Part shown: piece by piece, positions 424-16,836 of the stretch | Layout: the number at the start of each line of letters is the position of its first letter | Numbering within the stretch: the stretch's first letter is position 1 | IMG/VR virus record: IMGVR_UViG_3300025276_000222 | Span: 1-23,306 of that record | Strand: one strand, 5' to 3' | DNA length: 23,306 nucleotides | Source of the DNA: a virus | The notes under the pieces: model-generated | What the model saw: the letters and a program-made list of their open reading frames with translations, nothing else | Database searches by the model: none | What the model was told of the DNA's origin: nothing | Translations under genes and position numbers: made by a program

Positions 424-717
424 ATGAAAGAATTAAATACGTTTAGAAAATTTCTTACAGAAGAAGAAGAAGGTAATAAAATACCTGAAGCAGCTTTAAT
501 TTTACCTAGAGGTAAAAAAATAATATTACAAGCAGAAGAACAAGATTATAAGAGGGGGTTAATTGTAGAATTAACAGATGAAGGTGGATATAAAATTAAT
601 TATTGGTACGGGGATGACGTAAAAGTTTATCCTGCAGAAGTTGAAGTAGATGGTGAGTCAATAAAAGACGACGCAAATGAAGTTTACATTAAATTCCACC
701 CAGAACTAGAAAAATAA
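424..717 (+). CDS. Small acidic protein with capsid-targeting-like N-terminal tag
   Basis: This 97-residue acidic protein of unknown function begins M-K-E-L-N-T-F-R-K-F-L-T-E, followed by more Glu. The tag resembles the N-terminal targeting peptide of T4 internal proteins (MKTYQEFIAE, cut after the last E), and LTE fits the L/I-x-E site of the T4 prohead protease. Nearly the same tag opens the next ORF and recurs inside it. The remainder (ALILPRGKKIILQ, then alternating polar and hydrophobic residues) looks like a small beta-rich domain. The stop lies 6 nt before the next ATG, so the two are probably co-translated. A packaged virion protein is the best guess but is unproven. Confidence 0.7.
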   Translation: MKELNTFRKFLTEEEEGNKIPEAALILPRGKKIILQAEEQDYKRGLIVELTDEGGYKINYWYGDDVKVYPAEVEVDGESIKDDANEVYIKFHPELEK

Positions 718-723
718 AATAAA

Positions 724-2079
724 ATGAAAGAATTAAATAGATTTAGACAATTCCTTACTGAAGGTAATATAGTAAAAGAAGATGTATCTTCAAGATTTAT
801 AAATAAATATCTTTCTATGGTTACACCAGAGAATTTTAAAGATATTGAAGATATAGAATCATATAGTGATAGAGATAAAGCTATATTTATGTACTTAGAA
901 ATAGTCCCAGGTATTATGGTAGGCGATGAGTTAGCAAGGGATCTTAAAAACAAACCAGGTGAAGAAATAGTTGGATATTTTAAAGATAAAAATTATAGTT
1001 ATATGCCTTATAGTGCGATGGATAAAACATTTGGTTCTAAAACCCCTACTGGAATGGAATTTGAAAGAGGACAACCAGACAAAGTACATTTAGATAGAAC
1101 TCATAACATGAGAATTAATAAAATCCTAAGAAGCGAATATCCAGATGTTATTGATTTTATGAAAAGTGATAGAACAGGAGGTAATGCAATAGACGTTCAT
1201 AATGCTATCCAAGATAGATATAGTGATGAAGCAAAAGACGGAAGAAGCAGAGAAGTAAGTTATGAAGAATACGCTTCAGATTTTGCTGATGCTATGATGA
1301 ATAGAGCTGCAGGTAATTTAAACGAAAATAAAATGAAAGAATTATATAGATTTAGACAATTTCTTGCTGAAGGAGTAATTAAAGAAGAAGTAGACGTTAA
1401 TAAAATACTATCTGATGGTGGGTATGACATTATTGATGATGAAGAATTATTAATGACTGTTAAGGCTCGTCTTAAAGTTTATCCATACAATATAGATGCT
1501 AAGAAATTAAATTTTTTAGTAATGAAAATTGAAGATGAAGAGGGTGGAAATATTGATTTTAGTGAAGGTAATCTAAACGAAAACGAAGAAAAAATGTATA
1601 CTCTTTTTACTACTAACGTTGAATACGATAACGGAAAAACTGGTTATATGTACCAATTAGTAGATTCAGAAACTGAAGAAGAAAATGAAATTGGTTTTGA
1701 TCAATTATATTTTGTAGGAAAAGGAGATGCATCTGATCCAAGAGTATTTACTGGTAAAGATTTTGAAGAATTTGATCAAGGTAGCTATCGAGAAGAAGAA
1801 GTATCAGCTGAAGAAGCTATGAAGATATATAAAGGTTTAATTTCTAATGAAAATGTAAAAATGAATGAAGGAGAAGTTCCTATGGAATTATTAAAATCAA
1901 TTCAAAAATATGCTAATGAAGATAATGGAATGGGGTTTCAAGATGCATTAAAAAAGATAAAAACTGCCCTATATAAAGTAAATAGAGAAACACAAGGATT
2001 TTCAGATATGGAACAAGAAGAAATACCAATGTTTAAAGGCACAAGAGATGCTTTAGATGATATTAACATTGAAATATAA
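724..2079 (+). CDS. Modular tagged protein, possible fusion or polyprotein of small virion proteins
   Basis: The protein has 451 residues and no recognised domain. It starts MKELNRFRQFLTEG, and an almost identical tag, MKELYRFRQFLAEG, occurs at residues 204-217. The DNA of the two 39-nt tags differs at only three positions. Linkers GNLNENK (before Met204) and GNLNENEEK (before Met291), and a looser SNENVK before Met380, split the ORF into four modules at residues 1-203, 204-290, 291-379 and 380-451. Each begins with Met after an A-rich stretch, like a free-standing gene start. The simplest reading is duplication and fusion of small genes whose stop codons were lost. Cutting by the prohead protease at LTE/G, LAE/G and FSE/G could separate the modules again; this is inference. 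Internal starts at 1333, 1594 and 1861 might also be used. Confidence 0.75.
   Translation: MKELNRFRQFLTEGNIVKEDVSSRFINKYLSMVTPENFKDIEDIESYSDRDKAIFMYLEIVPGIMVGDELARDLKNKPGEEIVGYFKDKNYSYMPYSAMDKTFGSKTPTGMEFERGQPDKVHLDRTHNMRINKILRSEYPDVIDFMKSDRTGGNAIDVHNAIQDRYSDEAKDGRSREVSYEEYASDFADAMMNRAAGNLNENKMKELYRFRQFLAEGVIKEEVDVNKILSDGGYDIIDDEELLMTVKARLKVYPYNIDAKKLNFLVMKIEDEEGGNIDFSEGNLNENEEKMYTLFTTNVEYDNGKTGYMYQLVDSETEEENEIGFDQLYFVGKGDASDPRVFTGKDFEEFDQGSYREEEVSAEEAMKIYKGLISNENVKMNEGEVPMELLKSIQKYANEDNGMGFQDALKKIKTALYKVNRETQGFSDMEQEEIPMFKGTRDALDDINIEI
1311..1335 (+). repeat. Internal repeat: NLNEN linker plus second MKEL tag start
   Basis: AGGTAATTTAAACGAAAA at 1311-1328 recurs as AGGTAATCTAAACGAAAA at 1566-1583, with one mismatch in 18 nt. 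Both copies run into an A-rich stretch and an in-frame ATG (1333 and 1594). The pair marks module junctions within the long ORF. Confidence 0.75.
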
Positions 2080-2083
2080 TAAT

Positions 2084-2149
2084 ATGGAATGTAATTGTAA
2101 AGAATGCAACTGTGGAAAGTCTTGTGACTGCCCTTGTTGTGATTGTTAG
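2084..2149 (+). CDS. Cysteine-rich micropeptide, metallothionein-like
   Basis: This 21-codon ORF starts 4 nt after the preceding stop and ends with TAG at 2147-2149. Nine of its 21 residues are Cys, at positions 3, 5, 8, 10, 14, 16, 18, 19 and 21. The spacing is C-x-C-x2-C-x-C-x3-C-x-C-x-C-C-x-C, with N, K, E, G, S, D and P between and no hydrophobic residue other than Met1. Repeated C-x-C and C-C pairs are the hallmark of metallothioneins and other thiolate-cluster peptides, so binding of Zn, Cu or Cd, or redox buffering, is plausible. In such AT-rich DNA, nine TGT/TGC codons in one short frame are very unlikely by chance. It is far shorter than known bacterial metallothioneins, so the function is inference. 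It sits between a virion-type gene and a flavoenzyme. Confidence 0.6.
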   Translation: MECNCKECNCGKSCDCPCCDC

Positions 2150-2270: not shown

Positions 2271-3584
2271 ATGAGTAAAAATGTAGTAATGGTTGGAGCA
2301 GGTGTAGCGAATGTAAATGCTGCTACTAAGCTAATTGACAATGGTTTTAAAGGTAAAATTACTATCATTGATATGGGAAAAAATCCATATGACAGAAAAT
2401 ATTCCGAAGTAATGGAAGGGTTTTTGGGAGCTGGTGGTTGGTCTGATGGTAAATTAACTTACCATACTTCAATTGGGGGTCAATTATCAAAATACACAGG
2501 TGAAGAAAAAGCAATGGAGTTGTTTGATCAAGTTATAGCTAACTTTAAACGTTTCCACCCTAAACCAGAAGAAGTACAATGTTCAAATCCTATAGCAGAA
2601 CCTGAATTTATTAAACCGTATTTTGGTTTAAGACTATTCCCTGTATGGCACGTTGGTACAGACTATTTACATGAAATTGGTAAAAATTGGTATGATTTCT
2701 TAGTAGAGGGTGGTGTAGAATTTATATGGGAAACTAAAGTAACTAGCATTGATTTTGATAATAATGAATTGTTTATTGGTGAAGAAGAATCTTTTGTAGA
2801 TCCAAAAAATTGGCCGATTTCATATGATAAACTTATTTTTGGTGTAGGTAAATCGGGTATTGACTTTGGTAAAGCATTAGCGGAACAATTCGAACTACCA
2901 ACTGAATCTAAACCAGTACAAATTGGTGTGCGTTTTGAAGCACCACAAAAACACTTTCAAAAGTTAATTGATGTATCCTATGATTTTAAATTATATCGTA
3001 AGTATGAGGATAAGGGAGTATCACTTCGTTCATTTTGTACTAACAATAATGCAGCTTATGTTGCTGTTGAAGAAACATATGGCGATCATAGTTACAATGG
3101 GCACGCTAAGAAAGATGAATCGTTTAGGAATGATATGACAAATTTTGGTATTTTAATGGAAGTTCAAGGAATTGATAAGCCATTTGAATGGTCAAGAGAT
3201 GTAGTTAAGAAATTACAAATAGATGGTACAGGATTATATTATAGTCCAACACGTAAACCATCTACAACATCAGAAGGTGAAAATGTATCTGCTATACAAG
3301 TAGACACATTACACAAAATAGCAAAATCAATGCAACCATATTTTATGTATGTATATGATTTTATAGAGGATATGAAAAAAGTATTTCCTACATTAAACGA
3401 CGATTGGGGTATTTATGTACCCGAAGTAAAATATCTATCACCTGAGCCACTTGTCGATTACACCAATTTAGCACTCACTAAGTATCCTAACGTACATTTC
3501 GTAGGTGATGCTCTATCAGCTAGAGGTATAACGGTAAGTGGTGCACAAGGGACATATGTTGCAGAACATATATTAAAAAGTTAG
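2271..3584 (+). CDS. FAD-dependent oxidoreductase, COG2509-like
   Basis: This 437-residue protein is probably a cytoplasmic flavoprotein. An N-terminal Rossmann strand-turn-helix (VVMVGAGVANVNAA, from residue 5) is followed by an acidic strand end (IIDMG, residues 32-36) expected to hold the FAD ribose. Residues 50-63 (GFLGAGGWSDGKLT) and the C-terminal FVGDALSARGITVSGAQG match the pattern of COG2509 FAD-dependent dehydrogenases, whose substrate is not established. The glycine motif is atypical: GAGVAN, with Asn14 at the usual third glycine. AAGGA at 2258-2262 is one of the few Shine-Dalgarno-like sites here. The gene follows a hairpin and may be its own transcription unit. It is an auxiliary metabolic gene candidate within a virion module. 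Family is fairly sure, reaction unknown. Confidence 0.8.
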   Translation: MSKNVVMVGAGVANVNAATKLIDNGFKGKITIIDMGKNPYDRKYSEVMEGFLGAGGWSDGKLTYHTSIGGQLSKYTGEEKAMELFDQVIANFKRFHPKPEEVQCSNPIAEPEFIKPYFGLRLFPVWHVGTDYLHEIGKNWYDFLVEGGVEFIWETKVTSIDFDNNELFIGEEESFVDPKNWPISYDKLIFGVGKSGIDFGKALAEQFELPTESKPVQIGVRFEAPQKHFQKLIDVSYDFKLYRKYEDKGVSLRSFCTNNNAAYVAVEETYGDHSYNGHAKKDESFRNDMTNFGILMEVQGIDKPFEWSRDVVKKLQIDGTGLYYSPTRKPSTTSEGENVSAIQVDTLHKIAKSMQPYFMYVYDFIEDMKKVFPTLNDDWGIYVPEVKYLSPEPLVDYTNLALTKYPNVHFVGDALSARGITVSGAQGTYVAEHILKS

Positions 3585-3891: not shown

Positions 3892-4422
3892 ATGAAAATA
3901 GGTTTATGCGGTACAATGAGCGTAGGTAAAACTACACTAGTAAATGCTTTAAAAGAATTAAAGCAATTTAAAGGTTATGAATTTGCAACAGAACGCAGTC
4001 AACATTTAATGTCTTTAGGTATTCCATTAAATACGGATTCAACATTAAAAGGACAAACTGTATTTTTAGCAGAACGTTGTGGTGAATTAATGCATGACAA
4101 TATTATTACAGATAGAACAATATTAGATGTTATGGCATTTACCTTAAATGCTAAGTCAATACCCCACCAAGATAAGGATGCGTTTGAAGTATATGCTAGC
4201 GAATTTATTAGAGAATACGATTATATATTTTATATATCCCCTCATGGAATAGAAATTGAAGATAATGGCGTACGTGAAACCGATGAACATTATAGAGATT
4301 TAATTGATTTTACAATTACTACTCTTATTAAAAGACATGGTCATAAAGCGGGCCAAATAGAAAAGATATCCGGATCTACAGAGGAACGAATTCAACAAAT
4401 ATTAAATATTACTAGTCTTTAA
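3892..4422 (+). CDS. P-loop NTPase / kinase-like protein, AAA_28 type
   Basis: This 176-residue protein opens with a beta strand and a clear Walker A loop, GTMSVGKTT (residues 7-15). An ERSQ segment follows around residue 34, then ITDRTILDV, the Asp-Arg motif seen in small-molecule kinases of the NadR/AAA_28 and nucleotide-kinase type. VRETDEHYRDLID late in the chain could form a lid. Length and motif order suit phosphorylation of a nucleoside, nucleotide or related small metabolite, but nothing visible identifies the substrate. It lies in an accessory cassette with the flavoprotein and the DGKLHN protein and may adjust host nucleotide or cofactor pools. The P-loop fold is confident; the substrate is not. 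Confidence 0.75.
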   Translation: MKIGLCGTMSVGKTTLVNALKELKQFKGYEFATERSQHLMSLGIPLNTDSTLKGQTVFLAERCGELMHDNIITDRTILDVMAFTLNAKSIPHQDKDAFEVYASEFIREYDYIFYISPHGIEIEDNGVRETDEHYRDLIDFTITTLIKRHGHKAGQIEKISGSTEERIQQILNITSL

Positions 4423-4438
4423 CATATTTATAATAAAA
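4423..4438 (+). promoter_or_regulatory. Late-promoter-like motif CATATTTATAATAAAA
   Basis: The core TATTTATAA at 4425-4433 begins three nt after the previous stop and 34 nt before the ATG at 4459. It includes TATAAT at 4429-4434. Confidence 0.45.
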
Positions 4439-4458
4439 TCTAACTATAACATTATATA

Positions 4459-5049
4459 ATGAAAAGATCTAAATTAAAAGAGTTTATAAAAGAAGAAATT
4501 CTAACATCTCTAAAAGAGGCTACAATTGAAACTTCACCACAAAATTTATCTAAAGTAAAGTCTCAGGCTAAGGATGATGATATAATTAAAGTAGTAGAAG
4601 ATAAAGAAGATAATTGGGCTGATTACACAGACATAGGACAATTTTACTTAGAAGGATTTGGTAAAGAACACACTTTAGATGATAACCAATTAGAAAATTT
4701 AGGTAAAAAAATTGTTGACCAATTATATAAAGGTGATGTAGGTAAGGCATATGATGATATTGTAGGTCGCTTTAGAAACAAACCAAAAGATATAAAAGAA
4801 AATGAAGATGACGACACAGAAAAAGATGCAGTTAAGGCAGCAAAATCTGCTCGTGGTAAACATAAAAAATTAGATATTGCGGTTAAGGCTTTAAAGGACA
4901 TTACTACTGAGATGAAGTCTATAGCCCGTGAGTATAGTAAAGCAGACGGTATTGAAAAAGAAAAAATTAAGGATAAATTAAAAACTAAAACAGCTAAGAA
5001 AAAAGAACTAGAGTCTTTAGTAGCTAAATTAGAAAAGGATGTCGTTTAA
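4459..5049 (+). CDS. Lysine/glutamate-rich coiled-coil protein with tag-like N-terminus
   Basis: This 196-residue, highly charged protein has no recognised enzymatic motif. The start MKRSKLKEFIKEEI is a short amphipathic helix. It carries I-K-E and, a little later, SLKEA, both compatible with the L/I-x-E prohead-protease pattern, although K/E-rich helices give such matches easily. Residues 110-196 are rich in K, E, A and L with heptad-like spacing (KKLDIAVKALKDITTEMKSI, then KKELESLVAKLEKDVV), so a coiled coil is likely. It could be an internal head protein or a chaperone-like factor. Its 3' end overlaps the next gene by 11 nt in another frame. Confidence 0.7.
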   Translation: MKRSKLKEFIKEEILTSLKEATIETSPQNLSKVKSQAKDDDIIKVVEDKEDNWADYTDIGQFYLEGFGKEHTLDDNQLENLGKKIVDQLYKGDVGKAYDDIVGRFRNKPKDIKENEDDDTEKDAVKAAKSARGKHKKLDIAVKALKDITTEMKSIAREYSKADGIEKEKIKDKLKTKTAKKKELESLVAKLEKDVV

Positions 5050-5710: not shown

Positions 5711-7291
5711 ATGGCTGATATAAAAAAAGTAATACGCCAAGAATATTTAAAATGTGCTACGGACCCAGTACATTTTATGCGTAAGTACTGTTATATACAG
5801 CACCCACAACGTGGTCGCATACAGTTTAACCTGTACCCATTTCAAGAAAAAATATTAACGTTATTTCAAAATAACGACTATAGTGCTATACTAAAATCTA
5901 GACAACTAGGTATATCAACATTAGTGTCAGGTTACTCTCTTTGGTTAATGACCTTTCATAAAGATAAAAATATACTGGCCTTAGCAACTACACAGGCAAC
6001 CGCAAGAAATTTAGTAACAAAAGTACAATTTATGTGGGAAAATTTACCTTCATGGCTTAAAGTAGATTCTGCGGAAAATAATAAATTATCACTTAGATTT
6101 ACTAATGGTTCAAAAGTACAAGCAAAATCTTCAAATGCTGATGCCGCACGTTCGGAAGCAGTATCATTGTTGATAATTGATGAAGCAGCCTTTATTGATA
6201 ATATTGCTGAAACATGGGCATCAGCACAACAAACCCTAGCGACTGGTGGTGGAGCTATAGTATTATCTACACCTTATGGTACAGGTAATTGGTTTCATCA
6301 AACTTGGGTTAAGGCGGAACAGGGAGAAAATGATTTCTTACCAATTAAACTTCCATGGTATGTCCATCCTGAAAGAGATCAGTCATGGAGAGATGCACAG
6401 GATAATTTATTAGGTGATCCTAGATTAGCAGCACAAGAATGTGATTGTGATTTTAGCACATCAGGTGATATAGTATTTTATAATGAACATTTAGAATATT
6501 ATGAAAAATCCTTTATTAAAGAACCACTAGAACGTAGAGGTGCAGATCAAAACTTATGGGTTTGGGAAAATGCTGATTATTCTAGATCTTATATGGTCTT
6601 AGCAGATGTTGCTCGAGGTGATGGAAAAGATTTTTCTACTTGTCATGTAATGGATGTTGAAACTAATGTTCAAGTAGCAGAATATAAAGGTCAAATTGGT
6701 ACTAAAGAATTTGGACATTTATTAGTAGGATTAGCTACAGAATATAATGAAGCATTACTAGTAATTGAAAACGCCAACATAGGATGGGCTACAATACAAG
6801 TAGCTATAGATAGAAACTATTCTAACCTTTACTATTCACAAAAGAGTGGAGAAGCCAATGCTAGTTCGTATTTTGACCAATATGAGGACAATTCTAAAAA
6901 AGTAGCTGGTTTTACAATGTCATCTAAAACAAGACCTATGATAATAGGTAAGTTTCAAGAATACATTGGTGATAAAGGAGTAACAATTCAATCTAGAAGG
7001 TTGATAGAAGAAATGAAAGTATTTATTTGGAAAAATGGAAGGGCAGAAGCGCAAACAGGATATAATGATGATTTAGTAATGGCTTTTGGGATGGGGATGT
7101 ATGTTAGAGATACGGCATTAAAATTTAAACAAAGAGGAATAGACTTAACAAAACAAACCTTAGGTAATATGACAGTTAATAGAACACCTTACCAAGGTGG
7201 TTATGGTAGCGGTTACAATCAACAAGTAAAAAACCCATATAGCATGAATGACGATAAAGGTAATAAAGAAGATATTAGTTGGTTATTATAA
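5711..7291 (+). CDS. terL: Terminase large subunit (gp17-like)
   Basis: This is the ATP-driven DNA-packaging motor and headful nuclease, which docks on the portal. It has 526 residues (T4 gp17 about 610). Motifs appear in order: Walker A SRQLGIST (residues 63-70, the T4-like form), Walker B LLIIDEAA (153-160), and coupling motif LSTPYG (185-190). The RNase H-like nuclease domain carries LADVARGDGKDFS (Asp299), VIENANIG (Glu353) and YNDDLVMAFG (Asp453/454), giving the three acidic metal ligands. No small terminase is visible in the window. The gene is tightly coupled to the overlapping membrane-protein pair upstream, and the portal gene follows after 30 nt. Identification is confident. Confidence 0.96.
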   Translation: MADIKKVIRQEYLKCATDPVHFMRKYCYIQHPQRGRIQFNLYPFQEKILTLFQNNDYSAILKSRQLGISTLVSGYSLWLMTFHKDKNILALATTQATARNLVTKVQFMWENLPSWLKVDSAENNKLSLRFTNGSKVQAKSSNADAARSEAVSLLIIDEAAFIDNIAETWASAQQTLATGGGAIVLSTPYGTGNWFHQTWVKAEQGENDFLPIKLPWYVHPERDQSWRDAQDNLLGDPRLAAQECDCDFSTSGDIVFYNEHLEYYEKSFIKEPLERRGADQNLWVWENADYSRSYMVLADVARGDGKDFSTCHVMDVETNVQVAEYKGQIGTKEFGHLLVGLATEYNEALLVIENANIGWATIQVAIDRNYSNLYYSQKSGEANASSYFDQYEDNSKKVAGFTMSSKTRPMIIGKFQEYIGDKGVTIQSRRLIEEMKVFIWKNGRAEAQTGYNDDLVMAFGMGMYVRDTALKFKQRGIDLTKQTLGNMTVNRTPYQGGYGSGYNQQVKNPYSMNDDKGNKEDISWLL

Positions 7292-7321: not shown

Positions 7322-9217
7322 ATGGCAGATAAAAGTGTATTTACAAGATTAAGGAGATTATTTTCTACAGACGTAGTAATACGAAATGTTGGAGGTAACC
7401 AAATTAAAACCATAGATTCGGGTCATATCCAATCTAGTGGAGAGTATGAAACAAATGCTCTAGTAGACAGATTTAATAAAGTCTACTCCTCAGCCCCTAC
7501 CTCATTATATGGGGCACAATTTAATTTAAACTATCAATATTTAAGAACACAACTATACTCAGAATATGATGTAATGGACACAGATGCTATTATAGCCTCT
7601 TCTCTTGATATTATAGCAGATGAGTCTACACTTAAAAATGATATGGGTGAAGTGCTTCAAATTAGAAGCTCTAATGAAGATATACAAAAAATATTATATA
7701 ATTTATTTTATGATGTATTAAATGTAGAATTTAATCTGTGGATGTGGGTTAGACAAATGTGTAAATATGGCGATTTTTTCCTAAAATTAGAAATAGCTGA
7801 AAAATTTGGTGTATACAATGTTATACCTTACACAGCATATCATATTGAAAGACTTGAAGGTCAAAATCCTGAAAATCCTTCTGAAGTAAGGTTTAAATGG
7901 AATCCTGAAGGTTTTTCTGGAGGTTCTTCTAGTGGTTATTATAATGTAGCAGGGGCTAATGGAGCAAACGATGATAGAAGTGGTATAATATATGATAATT
8001 ATGAAATGGCTCACTTTAGAATGGTGGGTGATGTTAATTATTTACCTTATGGTAGGTCTTATATTGAACCAGCTAGAAAATTATTTAAACAATACACGTT
8101 AATGGAAGATGCGATGTTAATTCATAGAATTGCTCGTGCTCCTGAAAAAAGAGTATTTTATGTAAACGTTGGAGCAATTCCACCTAATGAAGTAGAAGCA
8201 TTTATGCAGAAAACTATCAATAACATGAAACGTACTCCAATGATGGATGAAAAAACAGGTGAATATAACTTAAAATATAACATGCAAAACATGTTAGAAG
8301 ATTTTTACATTCCTGTTCGTGGTAATGATAGCGCAACAAAAATTGAAACAACACCAGGATTACAGTATGATGGTATTGCGGATGTTGAATATTTAAGAGA
8401 AAAATTATTTGCTGCTCTTAAAGTACCAAAATCTTTTATGGGTTATGGAGAAGGAGAAGCAGGTAAATCTACATTAGCACAACAAGATATTAGATTTGCT
8501 CGTACTATTGATAGAATACAAAGAATATTATTATCTGAGCTCCAGAAGATTGCTCTAGTTCATTTATACACACAAGGGTTTAGAGATGAAACCTTAACAA
8601 ATTTTGAATTGTCAATGACAACTCCTTCTATCATTTATGATCAAGAAAGAATTGAATTAATGAAATCAAAATCTGAATTAGCAGGTACATTATTAGAACA
8701 AGGTTTAGTACCATCTGATTGGATTTACCACAATGTATACCACTTTAGTGAAGACCAATATGATGAGTATAGAGATCTAGTTCGCGAAGACTCTAAACGC
8801 AAATTTAGAAATGATCAAATTTTAGCAGAAGGCAATGATCCAGTAGAAAGTGGTCAATCATATGGAACTCCTCATGATTTAGCTTCATTATATGGTAAAG
8901 GCAGAACAATGTCTGATCCTGCTAATGTACCTGATGGGTATGCTGATGATTTAGAATTAGGTCGACCTAAAGATGGGGTTACTAATAGAGGAAAACAAGA
9001 CAATAATTTCGGTAAAGACCCTCTAGGAGTTAAAAGCATGAAAGGAACAGATAAAAATGATGGAGATTTTAAACCAAGACTATCAGAATTTGAAGACCCT
9101 AAAATAACTTACCTAAAAAATAAGGATATATTTAAAGGTTTAGACAAAAAACAACTAATATTTGAACAGGATAAAGCGGACTCTTCATTACTTGATGAAT
9201 CTCGACTAAAATCTTAA
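7322..9217 (+). CDS. gp20: Portal protein (gp20-like)
   Basis: The portal forms the dodecameric ring at the head vertex that nucleates prohead assembly and docks terminase. Support comes from position after terminase, length (631 residues against 524 in T4) and typical T4-like portal segments. These include the N-terminal FSTDVVIRNVGG, DTDAIIASSLDIIADEST near residue 85, HRIARAPEKRVFYVNVG near residue 270, and KVPKSFMGYGEGEAGKSTLA near residue 370. The last roughly 110 residues (from about GRTMSDPANVPDG) are polar, low in hydrophobics and rich in D, K and G. They look like a disordered extension and explain much of the extra length. ATG at 7322 follows an A/T leader with a motif 27 nt upstream. 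Confidence 0.93.
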   Translation: MADKSVFTRLRRLFSTDVVIRNVGGNQIKTIDSGHIQSSGEYETNALVDRFNKVYSSAPTSLYGAQFNLNYQYLRTQLYSEYDVMDTDAIIASSLDIIADESTLKNDMGEVLQIRSSNEDIQKILYNLFYDVLNVEFNLWMWVRQMCKYGDFFLKLEIAEKFGVYNVIPYTAYHIERLEGQNPENPSEVRFKWNPEGFSGGSSSGYYNVAGANGANDDRSGIIYDNYEMAHFRMVGDVNYLPYGRSYIEPARKLFKQYTLMEDAMLIHRIARAPEKRVFYVNVGAIPPNEVEAFMQKTINNMKRTPMMDEKTGEYNLKYNMQNMLEDFYIPVRGNDSATKIETTPGLQYDGIADVEYLREKLFAALKVPKSFMGYGEGEAGKSTLAQQDIRFARTIDRIQRILLSELQKIALVHLYTQGFRDETLTNFELSMTTPSIIYDQERIELMKSKSELAGTLLEQGLVPSDWIYHNVYHFSEDQYDEYRDLVREDSKRKFRNDQILAEGNDPVESGQSYGTPHDLASLYGKGRTMSDPANVPDGYADDLELGRPKDGVTNRGKQDNNFGKDPLGVKSMKGTDKNDGDFKPRLSEFEDPKITYLKNKDIFKGLDKKQLIFEQDKADSSLLDESRLKS

Positions 9218-9241: not shown

Positions 9242-10105
9242 ATGAAAATTAAACACTCAAAGTATAAAAATACAGGTATACTATTTGAATTACTTGTTAG
9301 ACAGATAACTGCGGATACCCTGTCGGGTAAAGAATCCAAGGCTATTGACTTATTAAAGACTTACTTTGTAAAAACAGAATTAGGTCGTGAATATAAGTTG
9401 TATGAAACAATTACAAAGTCTAAAGTACTAAATGAATCTAGAGCTACCGTATATTTAAATACTACACTAGATAACTCTAAAATATTTAATAGAGGTGCTT
9501 TAAGAAAGCAAAAGTACAATTTAATTAATGAAATAAAAAACCATTATAACTTAAATACTTTCTTTGGTTCACAAATTAAAAACTACAAAGAAACTGCAGC
9601 CTTGTATACATTAATCGAGGGTGTTAATTCTAAAACTGTAGTTGACAATAACCAGTTAATTGCTAGTAAAATAACAATACTAGAATTTTTAACTAAAACT
9701 GAAATAAAAAAGACCAAAAAAGACCAAGTACTAGCCGAATTTACTACTTACGATAAGGATGTAAGGTCCTTAACTTATAGAATATTACTAGAAAAATTTA
9801 ATGAAAAGTATGATGGTTTAAGTCAAGATCAAAAACAAGTACTTAAAGAATTTATCACCTCCGTAGACTCAACACCCGGATTAAGAACTTTTTATAATTC
9901 TAAAATAGTTTTACTTAAAAATTCCTTAAAAGAATCTTCTAAAGATATTAAGGATGAAGCTACTAAAATAAAAATTAACGAGATTACTAAGTTTTTAGTA
10001 GAATTAAATAAAACAGATAAGGTAGATAATGATAATCTAGTTGATTTGTTACAATACTACGAATTAGTAAATGAAATTAAAATAGCAAATGGCGTTAAAA
10101 TATAA
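9242..10105 (+). CDS. Conserved marine-phage protein between portal and protease
   Basis: I start this protein at ATG 9242; a TTG directly before it is possible but less likely. It has 287 residues, is basic and is mostly alpha-helical in character. The opening KIKHSKYKNTGILFELLVRQ is, from memory, recurrent among uncultured marine T4-like phages and always found near the portal. The body has K/E/N-rich helices without transmembrane segments, Cys clusters or a recognisable catalytic motif. Its place in the slot of T4 genes 67 and 68 suggests a prohead core or assembly role, but no sequence similarity to those is evident. The 3' end overlaps the next gene by 17 nt. Confidence 0.75.
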   Translation: MKIKHSKYKNTGILFELLVRQITADTLSGKESKAIDLLKTYFVKTELGREYKLYETITKSKVLNESRATVYLNTTLDNSKIFNRGALRKQKYNLINEIKNHYNLNTFFGSQIKNYKETAALYTLIEGVNSKTVVDNNQLIASKITILEFLTKTEIKKTKKDQVLAEFTTYDKDVRSLTYRILLEKFNEKYDGLSQDQKQVLKEFITSVDSTPGLRTFYNSKIVLLKNSLKESSKDIKDEATKIKINEITKFLVELNKTDKVDNDNLVDLLQYYELVNEIKIANGVKI

Positions 10106-11471
10106 ACTTAAAGAAATAGAAGTAGGTGACGTAAAAATAGATAACGGAGTTAAGTCTGTAGTTACAAGTAAAGACCCTAATACGGGTGCTATATCTTGGT
10201 CTATAGATTATGTTCCTAATTTAACTAAATTAGTTGAAGATTCTATGGAATTAGCTAGTACGGCAAAGGGTGTGTATCAAAAAGCTAAAGATGATAAAAA
10301 ATTTCTAGATATATACGAACAATCAAAACAATTAAGAAATACAATTCGTACCCATGTTAGAAATAATTATCCTGAAGACTATAAAAAATCAACAAACGAA
10401 TCAGTAGAAGAAGGAGTAGTTTATGATAATGAAACTCAAATATTAAAAGCTAAAATTTATGCTGAGGATTTTATGAGATCATATCGTAAAATGCTTAGAA
10501 TAGTTGATGGTAACTTTGGAGAAGTAGCAGAAGCTGAATTTAAAAAGATAGTAAAGGCCAAATTTAATGGTATGAATGAATCTGTAGTTAAAGAAGAAAC
10601 ATTTGAAGACGAAATCGTAAGATTAGAAGATACAATGTACGTTGATCGAAGAGATGGTGGTAAAATTTTTATACACCCCTTAGATAAACCAGGTGTAAGA
10701 AGACCTTCAAAAGATTACATTTCAATTAGTGGTAATAACATAACAGCTGTTCAAGGATACAATTCAGGACCAATACAAGATTTAGCAGATACCTATGGTT
10801 TATTTGTTGATAAGGATTCACGACTAGTCCCTATGGGTAAAGATTATGCTAGTGGAAAAGCATCATTATTATCCTCTAATATTTTAAGAGACGCTATTAA
10901 AGCAATTGAAGATGCAAGGAACATAGAAGCAAAAAATCAACAAGATTATTACAGAAAAAGAGGCCCAGTATCAGGAGTTGGTAATATGGATGAAGCTGAT
11001 GTTGTAGCTCCTATTGCAAAAGCAAATGTAGCGAAAGCTAACAACGCAATTACAAATGCTTCAGGGGTTGCCGATTATTTATTAGATGTTATTGATCAGA
11101 TAAAAGATAAAGAACAAGACGGTATTTTTAATAATAGCAATATAAAACAAGCTATAAACTTTTTAACAAAAGCTAAAGGTGTAGACGAAATGTCTATGTC
11201 AGGTGGGGCAGGTGCTTATCTAACACCTTATGCTTTTAGATTACCAAAAAAGAAAAAAAAAGACATAAAAGAAGGTGCTAAAAAGTCGGTTAATGTACAT
11301 AATCAAGGACAGCAACCAGGTGAAGACTTAGGACCGGGTCCAAAAGCAACAGAAGACGGAGTAAAAGATAATGCGTATGTAAAACAATTTAAATACCAGT
11401 TAGTTCCTAAAAATAAAAATGGTACTTATGTACAAAAAGGATCAGGACTTGAAGTAAAAAAATTGTTTTAA
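10089..11471 (+). CDS. Putative virion or prohead-core protein of unknown function
   Basis: This 460-residue protein is of unknown role. Residues 1-100 are charged (MALKYKLKEIEVGDVKID, later LTKLVEDSMELASTAKG). NESVEEGVVYDNETQI near residue 105 and NESVVKEETFEDEI near residue 155 look like paired linkers either side of a helical segment. A middle domain includes YISISGNNITAVQGYNSGPI. Near residue 365, MSMSGGAGAYLTPYAF is followed by RLPKKKKKD; from memory this GGAGAYLTxYAF element recurs in structural-region proteins of marine phages. The C-terminal 80 residues are Gly/Lys/Asn-rich and probably disordered. The start lies within the previous gene in another frame, and a 1-nt gap precedes the next gene, so these form one operon. 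Confidence 0.7.
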   Translation: MALKYKLKEIEVGDVKIDNGVKSVVTSKDPNTGAISWSIDYVPNLTKLVEDSMELASTAKGVYQKAKDDKKFLDIYEQSKQLRNTIRTHVRNNYPEDYKKSTNESVEEGVVYDNETQILKAKIYAEDFMRSYRKMLRIVDGNFGEVAEAEFKKIVKAKFNGMNESVVKEETFEDEIVRLEDTMYVDRRDGGKIFIHPLDKPGVRRPSKDYISISGNNITAVQGYNSGPIQDLADTYGLFVDKDSRLVPMGKDYASGKASLLSSNILRDAIKAIEDARNIEAKNQQDYYRKRGPVSGVGNMDEADVVAPIAKANVAKANNAITNASGVADYLLDVIDQIKDKEQDGIFNNSNIKQAINFLTKAKGVDEMSMSGGAGAYLTPYAFRLPKKKKKDIKEGAKKSVNVHNQGQQPGEDLGPGPKATEDGVKDNAYVKQFKYQLVPKNKNGTYVQKGSGLEVKKLF

Positions 11472-11472
11472 T

Positions 11473-11715
11473 ATGTATAATTATAAGTTGATAAAAGAAG
11501 ATGAGGATACGGCTAAACGAAATTTCCAAGAAGAAAGAGTTAATGCCTTTAGGGAAATAGAAGAAAAATTACAGTCTTTAATAAAACCATTAAGACAAGC
11601 AAAAATAGAAACTATAAAATATTATAGGGAAAACCCCAATAGTTACTCAGTAGTAACGGGTACAGATTTAATTAAGGACTTTATTAAGGATATTGAAACA
11701 TTACTAGAAAAATAA
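11473..11715 (+). CDS. Small helical protein, unknown
   Basis: This 80-residue protein begins MYNYKLIKEDEDTAKRNF and has no transmembrane segment. The centre (VNAFREIEEKLQSLIKPLRQ) and the end (TDLIKDFIKDIETLLEK) have heptad spacing and suggest a helical hairpin. The early L-I-K-E fits the prohead-protease pattern loosely. It lies 1 nt after the previous stop and 4 nt before the next start, in the slot where T4 carries the small core genes 67 and 68. A small core protein is possible, but no similarity can be claimed. Confidence 0.65.
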   Translation: MYNYKLIKEDEDTAKRNFQEERVNAFREIEEKLQSLIKPLRQAKIETIKYYRENPNSYSVVTGTDLIKDFIKDIETLLEK

Positions 11716-11719
11716 TAAT

Positions 11720-13123
11720 ATGAAAACATTACAAGAACAATACAATTCAATTCAAGAAGGCAAGGGCCGTAAGGATTTATTTTTAAAGGAGGCTAAAAAA
11801 ACATATCCTAATTTATTATCAAATCTTACTTCTTATAATGATGCTACAAGCATCTTAAAAAGCAAAAATAAAATCAACGAAGGTTTAGGTGGTATTGTTA
11901 CTTTAAAACCACTAGTACAACTAACATCTGAAGATTTTAACCCAAACAAACAAGATTGGGAAAGGAAATATGAAGATTTTGTTAATGAAGAAAAAGCTAA
12001 ATCTTTAAAACCAATCATTAATAAGGATATTGATAAAAAAATCAATACTGAAAAGGAAGATGATAAAATTAAAGCAGATGCTAAAGAAACATCAAAAACA
12101 GTAACAAATACACAAGATCGTAATTACGACTATTCACCAAAGGAAGATAACATTAACAATGTTAATGCTCAAGAAATGATGAATGGTGTGTATTTTGAAC
12201 TTAAAGAAGACCCATCTTTAACATTAGAAAAAGCACAAGAAAAAGTAATTAAAAACCTAGCTAAGGACCCATTAACATATGTAAAAAATGGTCAATTTGG
12301 AGTAGGCGTAGGATACACAGAAACAGAAGTACAGGAAAATTCAGGTAAAACCTACGGAGGTAGTGGATACAGTGATAAATTAAAAAAATCAGATACAAAA
12401 ATGAAACCAATTAAAGAAAGTTTATTTAAAAAATTAATCAAAGAAGGATTAGGTGGTGTAGTAACATCAGGAAACCCAAATTCACTAGCTGCACAATCAG
12501 GTAGAGAAATTAGAAGAATAATGGCTGAAGATGGCTTTCAAGCAGACCAAGCAGGTTCTCAATACCATGCTTCATTATATGCTGAATCAAATGATGAAAA
12601 AGCAGGACCAATGGATGAAGCTCCTAAACCAGATTTTATGGATATTGATAAGGATGGTGATAAGGAAGAATCTATGAAAAAAGCGGGTAAAGATAAAAAA
12701 TCTAAAAAACCTAAAAAAGATTCAATAGATGCTAAATTAGCAGAAATTGGACTTCAAGCAGAAACTGTAAAAATGGAAGCTCAATTAGAATTTTTAACTA
12801 ACCACATTAGTGAAAAACAAGATAGATTATCAGGAATTAATGAAGACGAAAATATGTTGGAATTAATGGATAAGACTAAATTAAAAGAAATGGCTAAGGA
12901 CATTAAGGCGTTAGAGAAGAAAAAATCTCAAATGGAAAGAATCTACGAAAAATCTTGCGGTAAAAGTTACTCACCATCAAAAATGGTAGATGAAGTAGAG
13001 GATATTGATGAAATGGATGCTGTATCTTGGAACAGACAAAACAACCCAACACAAGGCCCAGCAGGCGAACGTGATCCTAAAAAAGTAGGACAGTCAACAT
13101 CGGCGTATGGTTTAAACAAATAA
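11720..13123 (+). CDS. Putative prohead-core or internal head protein with DxDxDG motif
   Basis: This 467-residue, highly charged, low-complexity protein opens MKTLQEQYNSIQEGKGRKDL, then FLKEAKKTYPNL. From memory this start is recurrent in marine T4-like phages. I-Q-E/G and L-K-E/A fit the prohead-protease pattern. A short motif is repeated: EGLGGIVTL near residue 54 and EGLGGVVTS near residue 241. MDIDKDGDKEESMKKAGK near residue 310 resembles a single EF-hand-like calcium loop followed by a Lys-rich tract. The region from about 345 to 415 is a K/E/L coiled coil. Its position, 2 nt before the protease gene, and its composition suit an internal core or cargo protein. Function unproven. Confidence 0.7.
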   Translation: MKTLQEQYNSIQEGKGRKDLFLKEAKKTYPNLLSNLTSYNDATSILKSKNKINEGLGGIVTLKPLVQLTSEDFNPNKQDWERKYEDFVNEEKAKSLKPIINKDIDKKINTEKEDDKIKADAKETSKTVTNTQDRNYDYSPKEDNINNVNAQEMMNGVYFELKEDPSLTLEKAQEKVIKNLAKDPLTYVKNGQFGVGVGYTETEVQENSGKTYGGSGYSDKLKKSDTKMKPIKESLFKKLIKEGLGGVVTSGNPNSLAAQSGREIRRIMAEDGFQADQAGSQYHASLYAESNDEKAGPMDEAPKPDFMDIDKDGDKEESMKKAGKDKKSKKPKKDSIDAKLAEIGLQAETVKMEAQLEFLTNHISEKQDRLSGINEDENMLELMDKTKLKEMAKDIKALEKKKSQMERIYEKSCGKSYSPSKMVDEVEDIDEMDAVSWNRQNNPTQGPAGERDPKKVGQSTSAYGLNK

Positions 13124-13125
13124 AC

Positions 13126-13731
13126 ATGAGAAAGCTATTAATAGAAACTCATACAATTAACTATACCCCAACTATATTAACTGAAAGTGTTAATGCGGAA
13201 AATGGGAATATGGTTGTTGAGGGGATATTAGCTACTTGTGAAGTTAAAAACGGTAACGGTAGGTATTATTCTAAGGAATTATGGAAAAGGGAAATGGACA
13301 AGTATAATGAACTAATTGAACAAAGACGTTCAATGGGGGAACTAGACCACCCAGAATCTCAAATAATTAATCTACAAAATGTATCACATATTATTAGTGG
13401 GTACAGATGGGAAGGAAATGACATTGTAGGTAAAATAGAAGTTTTACCAACCCCAGCAGGTAATATATTAAAGGCACTAGTAGGTAATGGTGTAACAGTA
13501 GGTGTATCGTCTCGTGGTATGGGTTCATTAGAGGAAAATAGAGAAGGCGTAATGGAGGTTCAAGATGATTTTGAATTACTATGTTGGGATTTTGTTTCAA
13601 CTCCTTCAAACCCTGGTTCTTACATGCATATGATTAAAGAAGGTATGGAGGCATCAAAGTATAACTACACAAAAGTAAACAGTATTATACATGAAATCCT
13701 TTGTTCAAAAGGGTCATGTCCAATAACTTAA
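13126..13731 (+). CDS. gp21: Prohead maturation protease (gp21-like)
   Basis: This serine protease matures the prohead by cutting scaffold, capsid protein and internal proteins after Glu. It has 201 residues (T4 gp21 about 212). The herpesvirus-protease-like fold is indicated by VEGILATCEVKNGNGRYYSK (residues 31-50), GELDHPE with catalytic His75, GVSSRGMGSL with the nucleophile at Ser128 or Ser129, and CWDFVSTPS with Asp155. The N-terminus contains ILTES (Glu20), which matches the L/I-x-E self-cleavage pattern, although it may simply be the first beta strand. The gene ends a tight operon and is followed by a strong terminator. The family call is confident. Confidence 0.93.
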   Translation: MRKLLIETHTINYTPTILTESVNAENGNMVVEGILATCEVKNGNGRYYSKELWKREMDKYNELIEQRRSMGELDHPESQIINLQNVSHIISGYRWEGNDIVGKIEVLPTPAGNILKALVGNGVTVGVSSRGMGSLEENREGVMEVQDDFELLCWDFVSTPSNPGSYMHMIKEGMEASKYNYTKVNSIIHEILCSKGSCPIT

Positions 13732-13922: not shown

Positions 13923-15119
13923 ATGACAAACAACAGAGATTTGTTAAAAGAAGCAATCGCCGATGCTAAATCAGTTAAAGAAACTGCCATCGCGAATGCG
14001 AAACTTGCTCTAGAGGAAGCTTTCACCCCTTATCTACAAGATCAACTATCTGCTAAATTACAGGAGATGGACGATGAAGACGATAAGGATGAAAAAGTTG
14101 CTAAAAAAGCAGTTAAAAAAGAAGCAGTTAAAAAAACGTACGAAAGTGTTGACGAAGTTAACCTTGACGAATTATTAGCTGAAATTGAAATGGATGAAGA
14201 CGAAAAATCGGATGAGGAGCAAGAAGGCTACGAAGACGGTATGGAAGACGAGAAAGAAGATATGGACGACGAAGAAGTTGATCTAGAAGACCTTTCAGAA
14301 GACGACCTAAAAGGATTCATTGAAGATGTCATTAAAGACATGGTTGCAGCTGGAGAAATCGAGCCGGGCGACGAATTTGCAGAAGAAGACGTAGAAGTTG
14401 AAGACGTAGAAGTTGAAGACGATATGGATTTAGATGTAGCTATTGAACTTGACGAAGAAAAAATGTCAAACTCTGACATGAGACACGGAGACAAAGATGA
14501 CAGCGCACCTGAAAAAGAAACTGAAGCAGATCGTTTTAAAGACGATGACGAAGCAGATCGTTTTAAAGAAGGAGTAGATGTTGAGGTAGATGAATCATTA
14601 GCAGTAGCAGCAGGAGTTGCTTCTATTTTTGGTGGTGCCGTAGCATTAGATAAAGCAATGGATGCTTTAGAAGCAGGTAAATTAGGTGAAAAAGGAAAAG
14701 CATTTGCTGAATTCCTAAGATCACAAGGTAAAGCTGCTGCAGGTAGATATAATGAAGGTGTAGAAGAAGATTTTAATGAAATAGGAGAACTTAAACAAGA
14801 ACTTCAAGAAGTTAATCTTTTAAACGCTAAATTACTTTATACCAACAAAATCTTTAAAGCAAAAAACTTAACTGAAAATAAAAAAGTTAAAGTATTAAAA
14901 GCATTTGACAAAGCAACGGATGTTAAACAAGCAAAAGCTATTTATGAAACATTAAATGAAGGAATTGTAAACACAATTACAAATTCTAGAGTTAATGAAT
15001 CAGTAAAAAGAGGTGCTGCTTCAAAAGCTAGTGGTTTAGAACCAAGAGCTAAAAAACAACCAATTCTTGAATCAAATGAGGTATATGACCGTATGCGTAA
15101 GCTAGCGGGATTAATCTAA
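13923..15119 (+). CDS. Prohead scaffold / core protein (gp22-like)
   Basis: This 398-residue protein is probably the internal scaffold around which the capsid shell assembles and which gp21 then degrades. The start TNNRDLLKEAIADAKSVKE continues into a long amphipathic helix ending EEAFTPYLQDQLSAKL. Residues about 50-215 are extremely acidic (Asp/Glu tracts), as expected for a scaffold. A short Ala/Gly-rich hydrophobic stretch follows (ESLAVAAGVASIFGGAVALD), then a helical C-terminus ending RMRKLAGLI. L-K-E/A near the start fits the protease pattern. Two internal tandem repeats lie in the acidic part. Position directly between protease and capsid genes matches T4 gene 22. Direct similarity to gp22 is not obvious, so the role rests on context and composition. 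Confidence 0.8.
   Translation: MTNNRDLLKEAIADAKSVKETAIANAKLALEEAFTPYLQDQLSAKLQEMDDEDDKDEKVAKKAVKKEAVKKTYESVDEVNLDELLAEIEMDEDEKSDEEQEGYEDGMEDEKEDMDDEEVDLEDLSEDDLKGFIEDVIKDMVAAGEIEPGDEFAEEDVEVEDVEVEDDMDLDVAIELDEEKMSNSDMRHGDKDDSAPEKETEADRFKDDDEADRFKEGVDVEVDESLAVAAGVASIFGGAVALDKAMDALEAGKLGEKGKAFAEFLRSQGKAAAGRYNEGVEEDFNEIGELKQELQEVNLLNAKLLYTNKIFKAKNLTENKKVKVLKAFDKATDVKQAKAIYETLNEGIVNTITNSRVNESVKRGAASKASGLEPRAKKQPILESNEVYDRMRKLAGLI
14385..14414 (+). repeat. 15-nt tandem duplication in the scaffold gene
   Basis: GAAGACGTAGAAGTT occurs twice back to back (14385-14399 and 14400-14414), encoding the pentapeptide EDVEV twice. It probably arose by slippage and expands the acidic tract. Confidence 0.85.
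14523..14569 (+). repeat. 20-nt direct repeat in the scaffold gene
   Basis: GAAGCAGATCGTTTTAAAGA is present at 14523-14542 and 14550-14569 (27-nt period), encoding EADRFKD and EADRFKE. It lies in the hydrophilic part of the scaffold. Confidence 0.85.
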
Positions 15120-15150: not shown

Positions 15151-16836
15151 ATGAGCTTAAATTCATTATTAGAAAGCGCAAACCCATATCAGTCTATGCA
15201 GTCTGATGCGGCCAGATTATCTGGAAAATGGGGAAAAACAGGTCTTTTAGAAGGTCTAGAAGGACAAAACAAAAACAATATGGGTCTCATATTGGAAAAT
15301 CAAGCTAAGCAATTAGTTGTAGAATCATCTCAAACAGGTGGTGGTGCTGCATCTTCAGGTACATTCCAATCACAAACAGCTGTTAACACAGGTGGTCAGT
15401 GGGCAGGAGTTGCTTTACCATTGGTAAGAAAAGTATTTGGTCAAATCGCAGCGAAAGAATTCGTTAGTGTACAACCAATGAACTTACCTTCAGGTCTAGT
15501 ATTTTTCCTAGATTTCCAATACGGAAGTGATAAAACACCATTCTCAAAAGGGGATTCATTATATGGAAACACAACAGCAAATACATCTCCTTTTGGAAAT
15601 GATTCTGCAGGTGGTTTATACGGAGCAGGTCGTTTCGGTTACTCTATTAACAACTCAGCTTCAATCGCTGCAGACGCATCAGCTCCTTTAGCAGCTGCTG
15701 TATGGGCGGATTTTAACTATGATTCTAATTATTCTCAATCTTCAGTAGATGCAACTTATTGGAAAGTATTAGTACCAACTCAATCTTTAGATTTCGTAGA
15801 TAAAGAAGGTGTTGCTGCATTCCAATTATTCTCAGGATCACAAGGATATGATGCTATTTCAGCTTCAGCTGGATTACAATTATCAGCATTCACTAAATAC
15901 GACGGAGGAGCAAATATTACTTTCGTAGTACCTAAAGTTGATTTAGTAGGTGCAGGACCAGTTGCATTCGCAGCAGGTGACAACGTATCAGTTGTATACC
16001 AATTACAACCAACTGATCAATACAGAGGTGACTTTGAAGATGCTAACCCAGAGCCAAATAGTTTGAACTCTCCATCAATTAAAATTCCAGAAATCAACGT
16101 ACAGATGAAATCATCTGCAATCGTTGCTAAAACTAGAAAATTGAAAGCAGTATGGACGCCAGAATTCGCACAGGATTTAAATGCATACCATGCATTAGAT
16201 GCTGAAGCTGAATTAACTTCAATCTTAAGTGAGTACATTTCATTAGAAATTGACTTAGAGATTTTATCAATGTTGTTAGATAACGCAGCAGCAGGAAATG
16301 AAATATGGTCTGCAGTTAACAACAGATCAATTACTGAAGCAGGTGGTATTCAACCAGATTTAGGATTTTACAATTCTCAAGGACAATGGTTCCAAACATT
16401 AGGAACTAAAATCCAAAAGTTAAGTAATATCATACACCAGAAAACATTAAGAGGTGGTGCAAACTTCCTAGTATGTTCTCCAGCTATTGGAACAATCATG
16501 GAATCAATTCCAGGATTTGCTGCTGATACTGATGGTGATGCTGCAAAAGCAACTTACGCATTTGGTGTACAAAAAGTAGGTCAATTAAATGGACGTTACA
16601 AGGTTTACAAAAACCCTTACATGACTGAAAACACAATCCTATTAGGATTTAGAGGTGCTCAGTTCTTGGAAACGGGTGCTGTATTCGCTCCATATATTCC
16701 ATTAATCATGACTCCGTTAATTTACGATCCAGAAACTTTCACACCACGTAAAGGTTTATTGACTCGTTATGCGAAGAAAATGGTTAGACCAGAATTTTAT
16801 GGTACTATTCAAGTAAATGGTTTAAATACTCTATAA
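15151..16836 (+). CDS. gp23: Major capsid protein (gp23-like)
   Basis: This 561-residue shell protein (T4 gp23 521) has an HK97-type fold. The N-terminal pro-region shares landmarks with T4 gp23: KWGKTGLLEG near residue 26 (T4 KWKPLLEG), ILENQ near 47 (T4 IFENQ), then LVVESSQTGGG. Cleavage is therefore expected after Glu58. VALPLVRKVFGQIAAKEFVS and VQPMNLPSGLVF follow, as in T4 (VQPMNSPTGQVF). The C-terminus has FVCSPAIGT-like (FLVCSPAIGTIMES), YKVYKNPYM and LTRYAKKMVRPEFYGTI. It appears richer in C-ending codons (TTC, AAC, TAC) than its neighbours, fitting high expression. It is co-transcribed with the scaffold across a 31-nt A-rich gap and closed by a strong terminator. Confidence 0.95.
   Translation: MSLNSLLESANPYQSMQSDAARLSGKWGKTGLLEGLEGQNKNNMGLILENQAKQLVVESSQTGGGAASSGTFQSQTAVNTGGQWAGVALPLVRKVFGQIAAKEFVSVQPMNLPSGLVFFLDFQYGSDKTPFSKGDSLYGNTTANTSPFGNDSAGGLYGAGRFGYSINNSASIAADASAPLAAAVWADFNYDSNYSQSSVDATYWKVLVPTQSLDFVDKEGVAAFQLFSGSQGYDAISASAGLQLSAFTKYDGGANITFVVPKVDLVGAGPVAFAAGDNVSVVYQLQPTDQYRGDFEDANPEPNSLNSPSIKIPEINVQMKSSAIVAKTRKLKAVWTPEFAQDLNAYHALDAEAELTSILSEYISLEIDLEILSMLLDNAAAGNEIWSAVNNRSITEAGGIQPDLGFYNSQGQWFQTLGTKIQKLSNIIHQKTLRGGANFLVCSPAIGTIMESIPGFAADTDGDAAKATYAFGVQKVGQLNGRYKVYKNPYMTENTILLGFRGAQFLETGAVFAPYIPLIMTPLIYDPETFTPRKGLLTRYAKKMVRPEFYGTIQVNGLNTL

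Follow-up and report, generated by a model that had tools for sequence, protein, structure and literature searches.

A short N-terminal tag that recurs in related viral contigs in front of otherwise unrelated proteins is very probably a capsid-targeting leader that works like that of T4. The best reading of the sequence comparisons is that this tag and a second, alternative tag are a far-T4 variant of the T4 capsid-targeting leaders, through which a large arsenal of cargo proteins would be packaged. Beyond the leader itself, we lean slightly towards an exchangeable far-T4 cargo system, in which any small protein could become cargo, through the gain of one of two or more exchangeable leaders or through insertion into a head-core protein at a protease site, and the prohead protease would unpack all of it, multi-cargo chains among them, before DNA packaging.

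Tag copies and genomic setting

The window, i.e., the whole stretch of DNA that was analysed, is a 23.3-kb IMG/VR fragment of a T4-related myovirus (Table 1). Its host is probably a marine Bacteroidetes bacterium, by analogy with the marine Bacteroidetes that have been linked to far-T4 phages, which are reported to occur widely in aquatic environments (PMC7198788).

Three tag copies had been described in an earlier note on this DNA, at 424, at 724 and in frame at 1333, and all three were recovered. Over 39 nt, the copies at 424 and 724 differ at five positions, those at 424 and 1333 at six, and those at 724 and 1333 at three, the last figure being the one given before. The third copy is present as claimed, and its position turns out to be a joint inside a fused protein of several segments, where it may also start a separate product. 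When all N-termini of the window were compared over residues 2–14, the 424/724 pair reached a BLOSUM62 score of 49, against a maximum of 23 both for shuffled window N-termini (20 within-protein shuffles) and for the next-best real pair; the likeness of the two tags is therefore not a matter of chance. When the same scan was run on T4, the established leaders of IPII and IPIII (MKTYQEFIAE) formed the top-ranked pair, which shows that it detects leaders where they are known. Among the looser tag candidates proposed in the earlier note, the ORF at 11473 gained support through an orthologue with a genuine tag (see below), and the other three did not: the ORF at 4459 starts with a different N-terminal motif, and the products of those at 11720 and 13923, a head-core and a scaffold-like protein, have no tag, though many L/I-x-E sites.

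Table 1. Features of the window discussed in the text; a slash stands behind the Glu of an L/I-x-E site.
Feature	Position	Strand	Remark
Tag copy 1, MKELNTFRKFLTE	424..462	+	presumed cut after Glu13
Cargo body 1, 84 aa plus stop	463..717	+	body of ORF 424
451-aa fused protein, several tagged cassettes	724..2079	+	
Tag copy 2, MKELNRFRQFLTE	724..762	+	start of the 724-2079 ORF
Segment A, residues 14-195	763..1308	+	separate tagged gene of 195 aa in L096/L105 (94% identity)
Joint 1: GNLNE/NK, tag copy 3, then VIKE/	1309..1386	+	
Tag copy 3, MKELYRFRQFLAE	1333-1371	+	in frame inside the 724-2079 ORF
Segment B, residues 222-283	1387..1572	+	no homologue found
Joint 2: LNE/N (Glu286)	1573..1584	+	
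Segment C, residues 288-372	1585..1839	+	separate gene elsewhere, behind tag 1 (L256/L095) or tag 2 (L094/L087)
Segment D, residues 373-451 plus stop	1840..2079	+	no firm homologue
Large terminase homologue	5711..7291	+	N-terminus matches the annotated immuto terminase
Portal, gp20 type	7322..9217	+	phrog_213
Presumed head-core protein	10089..11471	+	between portal and protease; IKE site at residue 395
Small presumed core protein MYNYKLIKE...	11473..11715	+	between portal and protease; tag-1-bearing orthologue in L232
Presumed head-core protein	11720..13123	+	13 L/I-x-E sites
gp21-type prohead protease	13126..13731	+	phrog_207, E 8.5e-57
Scaffold-like protein (gp22 position)	13923..15119	+	14 L/I-x-E sites; follows the protease
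Major capsid protein	15151..16836	+	56% identity to Flavobacterium phage immuto

Distribution and exchange of the two tags

Tag 1 was defined as MKELxxF[RK]x[FY]LxE and tag 2 as M[DE]N[FY][DN]L[KR]K[YF]L[AV]E, typically MDNFDL[KR]KYLAE, and the proteins were drawn from pattern scans of a viral collection (IMG/VR contigs) and from loci fetched by portal. At least 289 non-redundant proteins on related IMG/VR contigs carry one of the two tags. Their bodies range from about 50 to more than 500 aa and fall into at least 128 clusters after removal of the tag (BLAST, single linkage; counts approximate), which agrees with the earlier proposal that unrelated proteins share the tag. This distribution marks the tag as a mobile module at the N-terminus. 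In locus L082, six consecutive tagged genes each have a different body. Where a locus also contains the FAD-like gene found at position 2271 of the window, the tagged ORFs (169 by a redundant count) all have the same orientation and 166 of them lie upstream of that gene, so that a single main locus for cargo precedes the packaging and head genes. Outside the viral collection, a search of 84,980 genomes of bacteria and archaea with the tag-2 pattern matched only three contigs, all of which are pieces of the same phage group binned into MAGs.

The two leaders are, on the evidence of their sequence context, interchangeable between bodies. At least 25 pairs of a tag-1 and a tag-2 protein, from at least eight separate families, have the same body beginning right behind the tag, with body identities of up to 93% across the swap. 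The body of segment C of the fused protein follows MKELYRFRQFLAE in L106 and MDNFDLKKYLAE in L109 (93% identical), and the body of ORF 424 carries tag 2 as MDNFDLRKYLTE in L311:4109 and as MENFDLRKYLKE in L179:9012. Such swaps are difficult to reconcile with the view that the tagged proteins are one tandemly duplicated paralogue family, in which the bodies diverged, the N-terminus was the slowest part to change and the tag plays no role in sorting. The tandem order of the tagged genes in a single locus and on a single strand is what such a family would show. However, close relatives of one body occur behind either tag, cargo 1 (the body of ORF 424) also occurs without a tag, as a domain inside other proteins, and the tenfold spread in body length goes along with weak, single-member family matches. 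We regard the paralogue reading as very improbable and continue with an exchangeable leader.

A third tag, MKKSELKxxIKE (window 4459), was considered and rejected as a comparable module. Its 61 proteins form just 11 body clusters and, with 44 of them in one cluster, it mostly marks one conserved family. Four immuto proteins (L304:2250, L304:2836, L097:6293 and L097:16460) also open with MKKS[EQ][LI]..., like the ORF at window 4459; such starts could be a further leader type, with low body diversity in our sample.

Conserved positions and likeness to the T4 leader

Both tags keep near-invariant residues at P7, P4, P3 and P1, counted back from the presumed cut Glu. Among the matches listed, the 37 body-cluster representatives of tag 1 all have Phe at P7 and Phe or Tyr at P4, and the 99 representatives of tag 2 have Leu at P7 in 98 and Tyr or Phe at P4 in 99 cases, counts that are partly demanded by the search patterns. 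Since the patterns fix some of the conserved residues, the check that counts is the set of portal-fetched loci, which was read with a regex for the tag's first half only. In this tag-unbiased set, 16 of 17 tags end in [FYW][LI]xE, so that the L/I-x-E ending described in the earlier note is indeed conserved. The information content of tag 1 is 4.3 bits at the Glu and falls to about 0.4–1.0 bits from P2' on; P2 and P8–P9 of this tag are not conserved. In 90% of the 99 tag-2 body clusters (among the matches listed), another L/I-x-E lies in the 12 aa that follow the tag; the rate was 10% for body windows and did not exceed 36% in any of 500 shuffles. The spacing of this second site varies. For tag 1, a second site was found in 27% versus 13% expected, a value equal to the best shuffle, and the excess is not significant.

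The Leu at P3 of tag 1 is written with at least five different codons, which indicates selection on the peptide. Synonymous changes are also common at the conserved Leu, Phe, Tyr and Glu codons of the tags, and these changes speak against a conserved nucleotide element, such as a ribosome-binding or start context or a recombination hotspot, of which the peptide would be a by-product. Such an element would explain the A-rich starts before the tags, and the repeated tags might act as recombination seams. It would not explain why conservation is placed at the four positions named above and is missing at P2 and, in tag 1, at P8–P9, or why the second L/I-x-E of tag 2 is retained despite its changing distance. 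The nucleotide reading also appears very unlikely to us, and a conserved peptide is preferred.

Knowledge of the T4 capsid-targeting leader goes back to the 1990s and is, as far as we are aware, limited to a few T-even proteins. Mutations in the leader of T4 IPIII have assigned targeting to residues 4 and 7 and processing to residues 8 and 10; the cut by gp21 falls behind L/I-x-E (PMC9026906). Counted from the cut, T4 residues 4, 7, 8 and 10 are P7, P4, P3 and P1, the same positions that both tags keep. The resemblance to the targeting peptide of T4 internal proteins, which had been suggested from the window alone, is thus borne out as bulky hydrophobic residues at P7 and P4, Leu or Ile at P3 and Glu at P1. 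As with the T4 leaders (CTS) of IPI, IPII and IPIII, a short N-terminal leader stands on otherwise unrelated proteins (PMC9026906, PMC3012670, PMC12373910), ends in L/I-x-E, has hydrophobic or aromatic residues at the two targeting positions and occurs with a gp21-type protease. Unlike the T4 leaders, the tags have 12–13 residues with little sequence identity to MKTYQEFIAE, form two mutually replacing leader families on at least 128 body clusters and, in the case of tag 2, bring a second L/I-x-E site; the cargo here is also embedded in core proteins or chained with sites at the joints. Because the leaders are so short, the shared pattern could be convergent rather than a product of common descent.

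Other phages have comparable propeptides. According to the parts of PMC5694885 on which we draw, the propeptides of phiKZ and SPN3US ejection proteins are, like the tags, N-terminal and cut after Glu, with several sites each, and the first 15 residues of SPN3US gp53 and gp54 are identical. Unlike the tags, they depend on S80 proteases with the motif A/S-x-E, and gp53 and gp54 are paralogues; the same parts of that account report no leader swapping between unrelated bodies (PMC5694885).

Co-occurrence with the prohead protease

The assignment of a gp21-type prohead protease to the window in the earlier note is confirmed by the match to phrog_207 (Table 1). Among 34 tag-bearing records, the portal was found in 17 and gp21 in exactly those same 17, including all seven records of at least 150 kb. 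Wherever a tag-bearing record extends into the region of portal and protease, it also encodes a gp21-type protease, and the short record G003, in which the portal is present, stops before the expected protease position. The tag is thus confined to records that encode gp21 or to fragments without part or all of the portal–protease region, in keeping with the proposed link between the two. Three near-identical records of ~100–110 kb with six tagged genes each (G001, G004 and G007) gave no gp21 or portal match; G001 has T4-like genes for replication and the baseplate, and its scanned genes include no head module. These records were considered as gp21-less carriers that would refute the tag–protease link and were set aside in this role, as they are also without a portal match. 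They seem to be T4-related fragments without the head module and are neutral evidence.

The head region itself holds further sites and tags. The N-terminus of the window protease itself contains an ILTE site, at residue 20, and all 69 protease homologues have an L/I-x-E, usually LTE, within their N-terminal residues 11–32. In L232, the orthologue of the window ORF at 11473 lies at the same place, between portal and protease, and opens with tag 1 (MKELTSFKKYLVE). Tagged genes directly follow gp21 in L012 and the gp21 match in G031 and G038. In T4, the genes of gp67, gp68 and gp22 lie in the portal–protease interval and are rich in L/I-x-E. The window ORFs at 10089, 11473 and 11720 resemble them in both respects and, unlike them, core proteins here also carry cargo domains or, in L232, a leader; the comparison with gp67 and gp68 is a presumed one by position, not by sequence homology.

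These placements also bear on the possibility that the leader is a cleaved sorting peptide with a destination other than the head interior, such as the tail, the baseplate or a bacterial compartment. The six-gene tagged array of G001 is upstream of baseplate genes on a contig where no head genes were seen, and some tagged genes of immuto are far from the head operon, as would be expected of such a peptide. Nevertheless, cargo is found in, and tags on, genes between portal and protease, the tag site matches the specificity of gp21, and some tagged genes come directly after gp21 or its match. Another destination is decidedly improbable in our estimation, and delivery into the head remains the preferred reading.

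Cargo in fused and head-core proteins

The body of ORF 424 is embedded in five longer proteins (L061, L027, L063, L152 and L118), of which those of L061 and L027 are homologues of the window core protein 10089–11471. In L061, the cargo sits at the IKE site that corresponds to residue 395 of this protein. The right border of the embedded cargo is PELNE/ or PELKE/ in all five carriers, and the left border is L/I-x-E in four (L061, L027, L063 and L152) and VNE in L118; in L114, PELKE/ stands at the end of cargo 1 with a further segment behind it. Where cargo 1 forms the end of the protein, the right-hand site is missing and the sequence reads PELEK-stop (window, L244 and L179) or PELKN (L253). 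As terminal copies are without it, the right-hand site seems to arise where something must be cut off. The L/I-x-E motifs at the borders of cargo 1 support a predicted cutting at these points. For embedded cargo overall, L/I-x-E was found at the left border in 25 of 51 non-redundant cases (13 clusters), compared to a random expectation of 12.6, and none of 2000 simulations reached 25; the left-border window of the other 26 copies contains no L/I-x-E. A relative of the window protein 11720–13123 in L234/L237 holds tag-1 cargo in its C-terminal half.

The 451-aa ORF 724–2079 has only five L/I-x-E motifs, at residues 13, 201, 216, 221 and 286, and all of them are in the tags or joints, which make up 11% of its length. 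The chance of such a placement at random is about 1.5e-5, or 1.3e-3 without the two tag sites. This placement at the fusion joints likewise supports cutting, as a prediction from the site motif. The P1 polyvalent proteins DarB and DdrB resemble the fusion in being multi-domain and virion-delivered, with parts freed by proteolysis; a peptidase domain of their own has been proposed for them, whereas release here would need the prohead protease and L/I-x-E joints (PMC5512222). The cargo was rejected as DarB/DdrB-type polyvalent proteins, as there was no peptidase domain among the Pfam matches of 124 cargo representatives.

Proposed packaging route

For core binding, cutting and injection of the tagged proteins, we infer the following route. 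The hydrophobic face of the leader (P7 and P4 from the cut Glu) would bind the prohead core, and the protein behind the leader would thereby be built into the head. The gp21-type protease would then cut after the L/I-x-E at the leader's end and release the mature cargo, with tag 2 usually offering it a second site just downstream, and the mature cargo would stay with the DNA and be injected into the host. Cargo can also ride in a head-core protein or in a fused chain, from which the protease would free it at the L/I-x-E joints. The cluster upstream of the packaging and head genes is where cargo genes come and go. Flavobacterium phage immuto is one carrier, with ORFs 193 and 194 and the tagged ORFs at 1803–2318 and 103762–104310; leaders there end in FLTE or FLVE, and the second L/I-x-E is LLKE in ORF 193 and ILKE in ORF 194. 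For this phage, no virion proteomics was found in the open literature.

Within the open literature searched, the scale of the system, the exchange of two leaders and the cargo inside core proteins between protease sites appear to be new. If the exchangeable cargo system is real, the leader cluster would amount to an inventory of the anti-defence proteins injected into Bacteroidetes hosts. With its leader swaps and its cargo between protease sites, this natural collection, much larger than that of T4, allows the rules by which proteins are targeted to the head and cut to be read from sequence, and the family-less proteins behind these leaders are candidate virion-delivered proteins, plausibly inhibitors of Bacteroidetes defences. 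Interchangeable self-cutting leaders and insertion sites could also be practical tools to load phage heads.

Nature of the cargo

AlphaFold predicts a confident compact beta domain for residues ~25–92 of ORF 424 and a helical leader of low confidence. A comparison of the cargo 1 fold with the PDB gave nothing significant (best E 0.34), and two relatives of the model were found in BFVD. In BFVD entry A0A6J5NEB8, a relative of the cargo-1 domain is inside a 478-aa phage protein annotated as XkdF, perhaps another carrier protein. PHROGs gave no match for the window ORFs 424 and 724. For the 124 cargo representatives, matches in Pfam, PHROGs and PADLOC were single-member and mostly weak. The Pfam matches comprise 16 families at E 0.01 with one member each; the best cargo family match is Zeta_toxin (PF06414, E 8.7e-18, one member; alignment A2), which is kinase-like. 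L/I-x-E occurs 153 times in the cargo versus 174 expected and 194 times versus 169 in control proteins, a depletion that is suggestive, post hoc and weak.

T4 Ip1–3 share only the leader and each block a different GmrSD restriction enzyme, and the variable bodies of T4 internal proteins inhibit type IV restriction enzymes (PMC12373910). With this precedent, injected anti-defence is the natural guess for the cargo here, and the anti-defence roles that we infer are carried over by analogy from the T4 internal proteins.

Additional observations

Directly 3' of the fused tagged gene, at window 2084–2149 and inside ORF 2057–2149, there is a tiny Cys-rich ORF, MECNCKECNCGKSCDCPCCDC, with a metallothionein-like composition. 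Similar AT-rich strings (atatttataata) occur at ~395–410 and ~4422–4440, upstream of ORFs 424 and 4459, and are perhaps a late-promoter element. The orthologue of the FAD-like window ORF 2271–3584 is in two parts in L105:11738–14098 and L107:14298–16649, which are the same phage (G006/G013). Two ORFs lie inside the split gene, and one of them, MSRIKNKTFIYYLERNKLPFYIGKT..., resembles a GIY-YIG endonuclease, so the split is probably a homing-endonuclease insertion. Two immuto proteins (L302:25470–25865 and L097:4780–5244) have MKKQILSEQF[KR]RMQ[FK]L in common, and a related string, RMRKLAGLI, forms the end of the scaffold-like window ORF 13923–15119; these strings are possibly a further head-core association motif.
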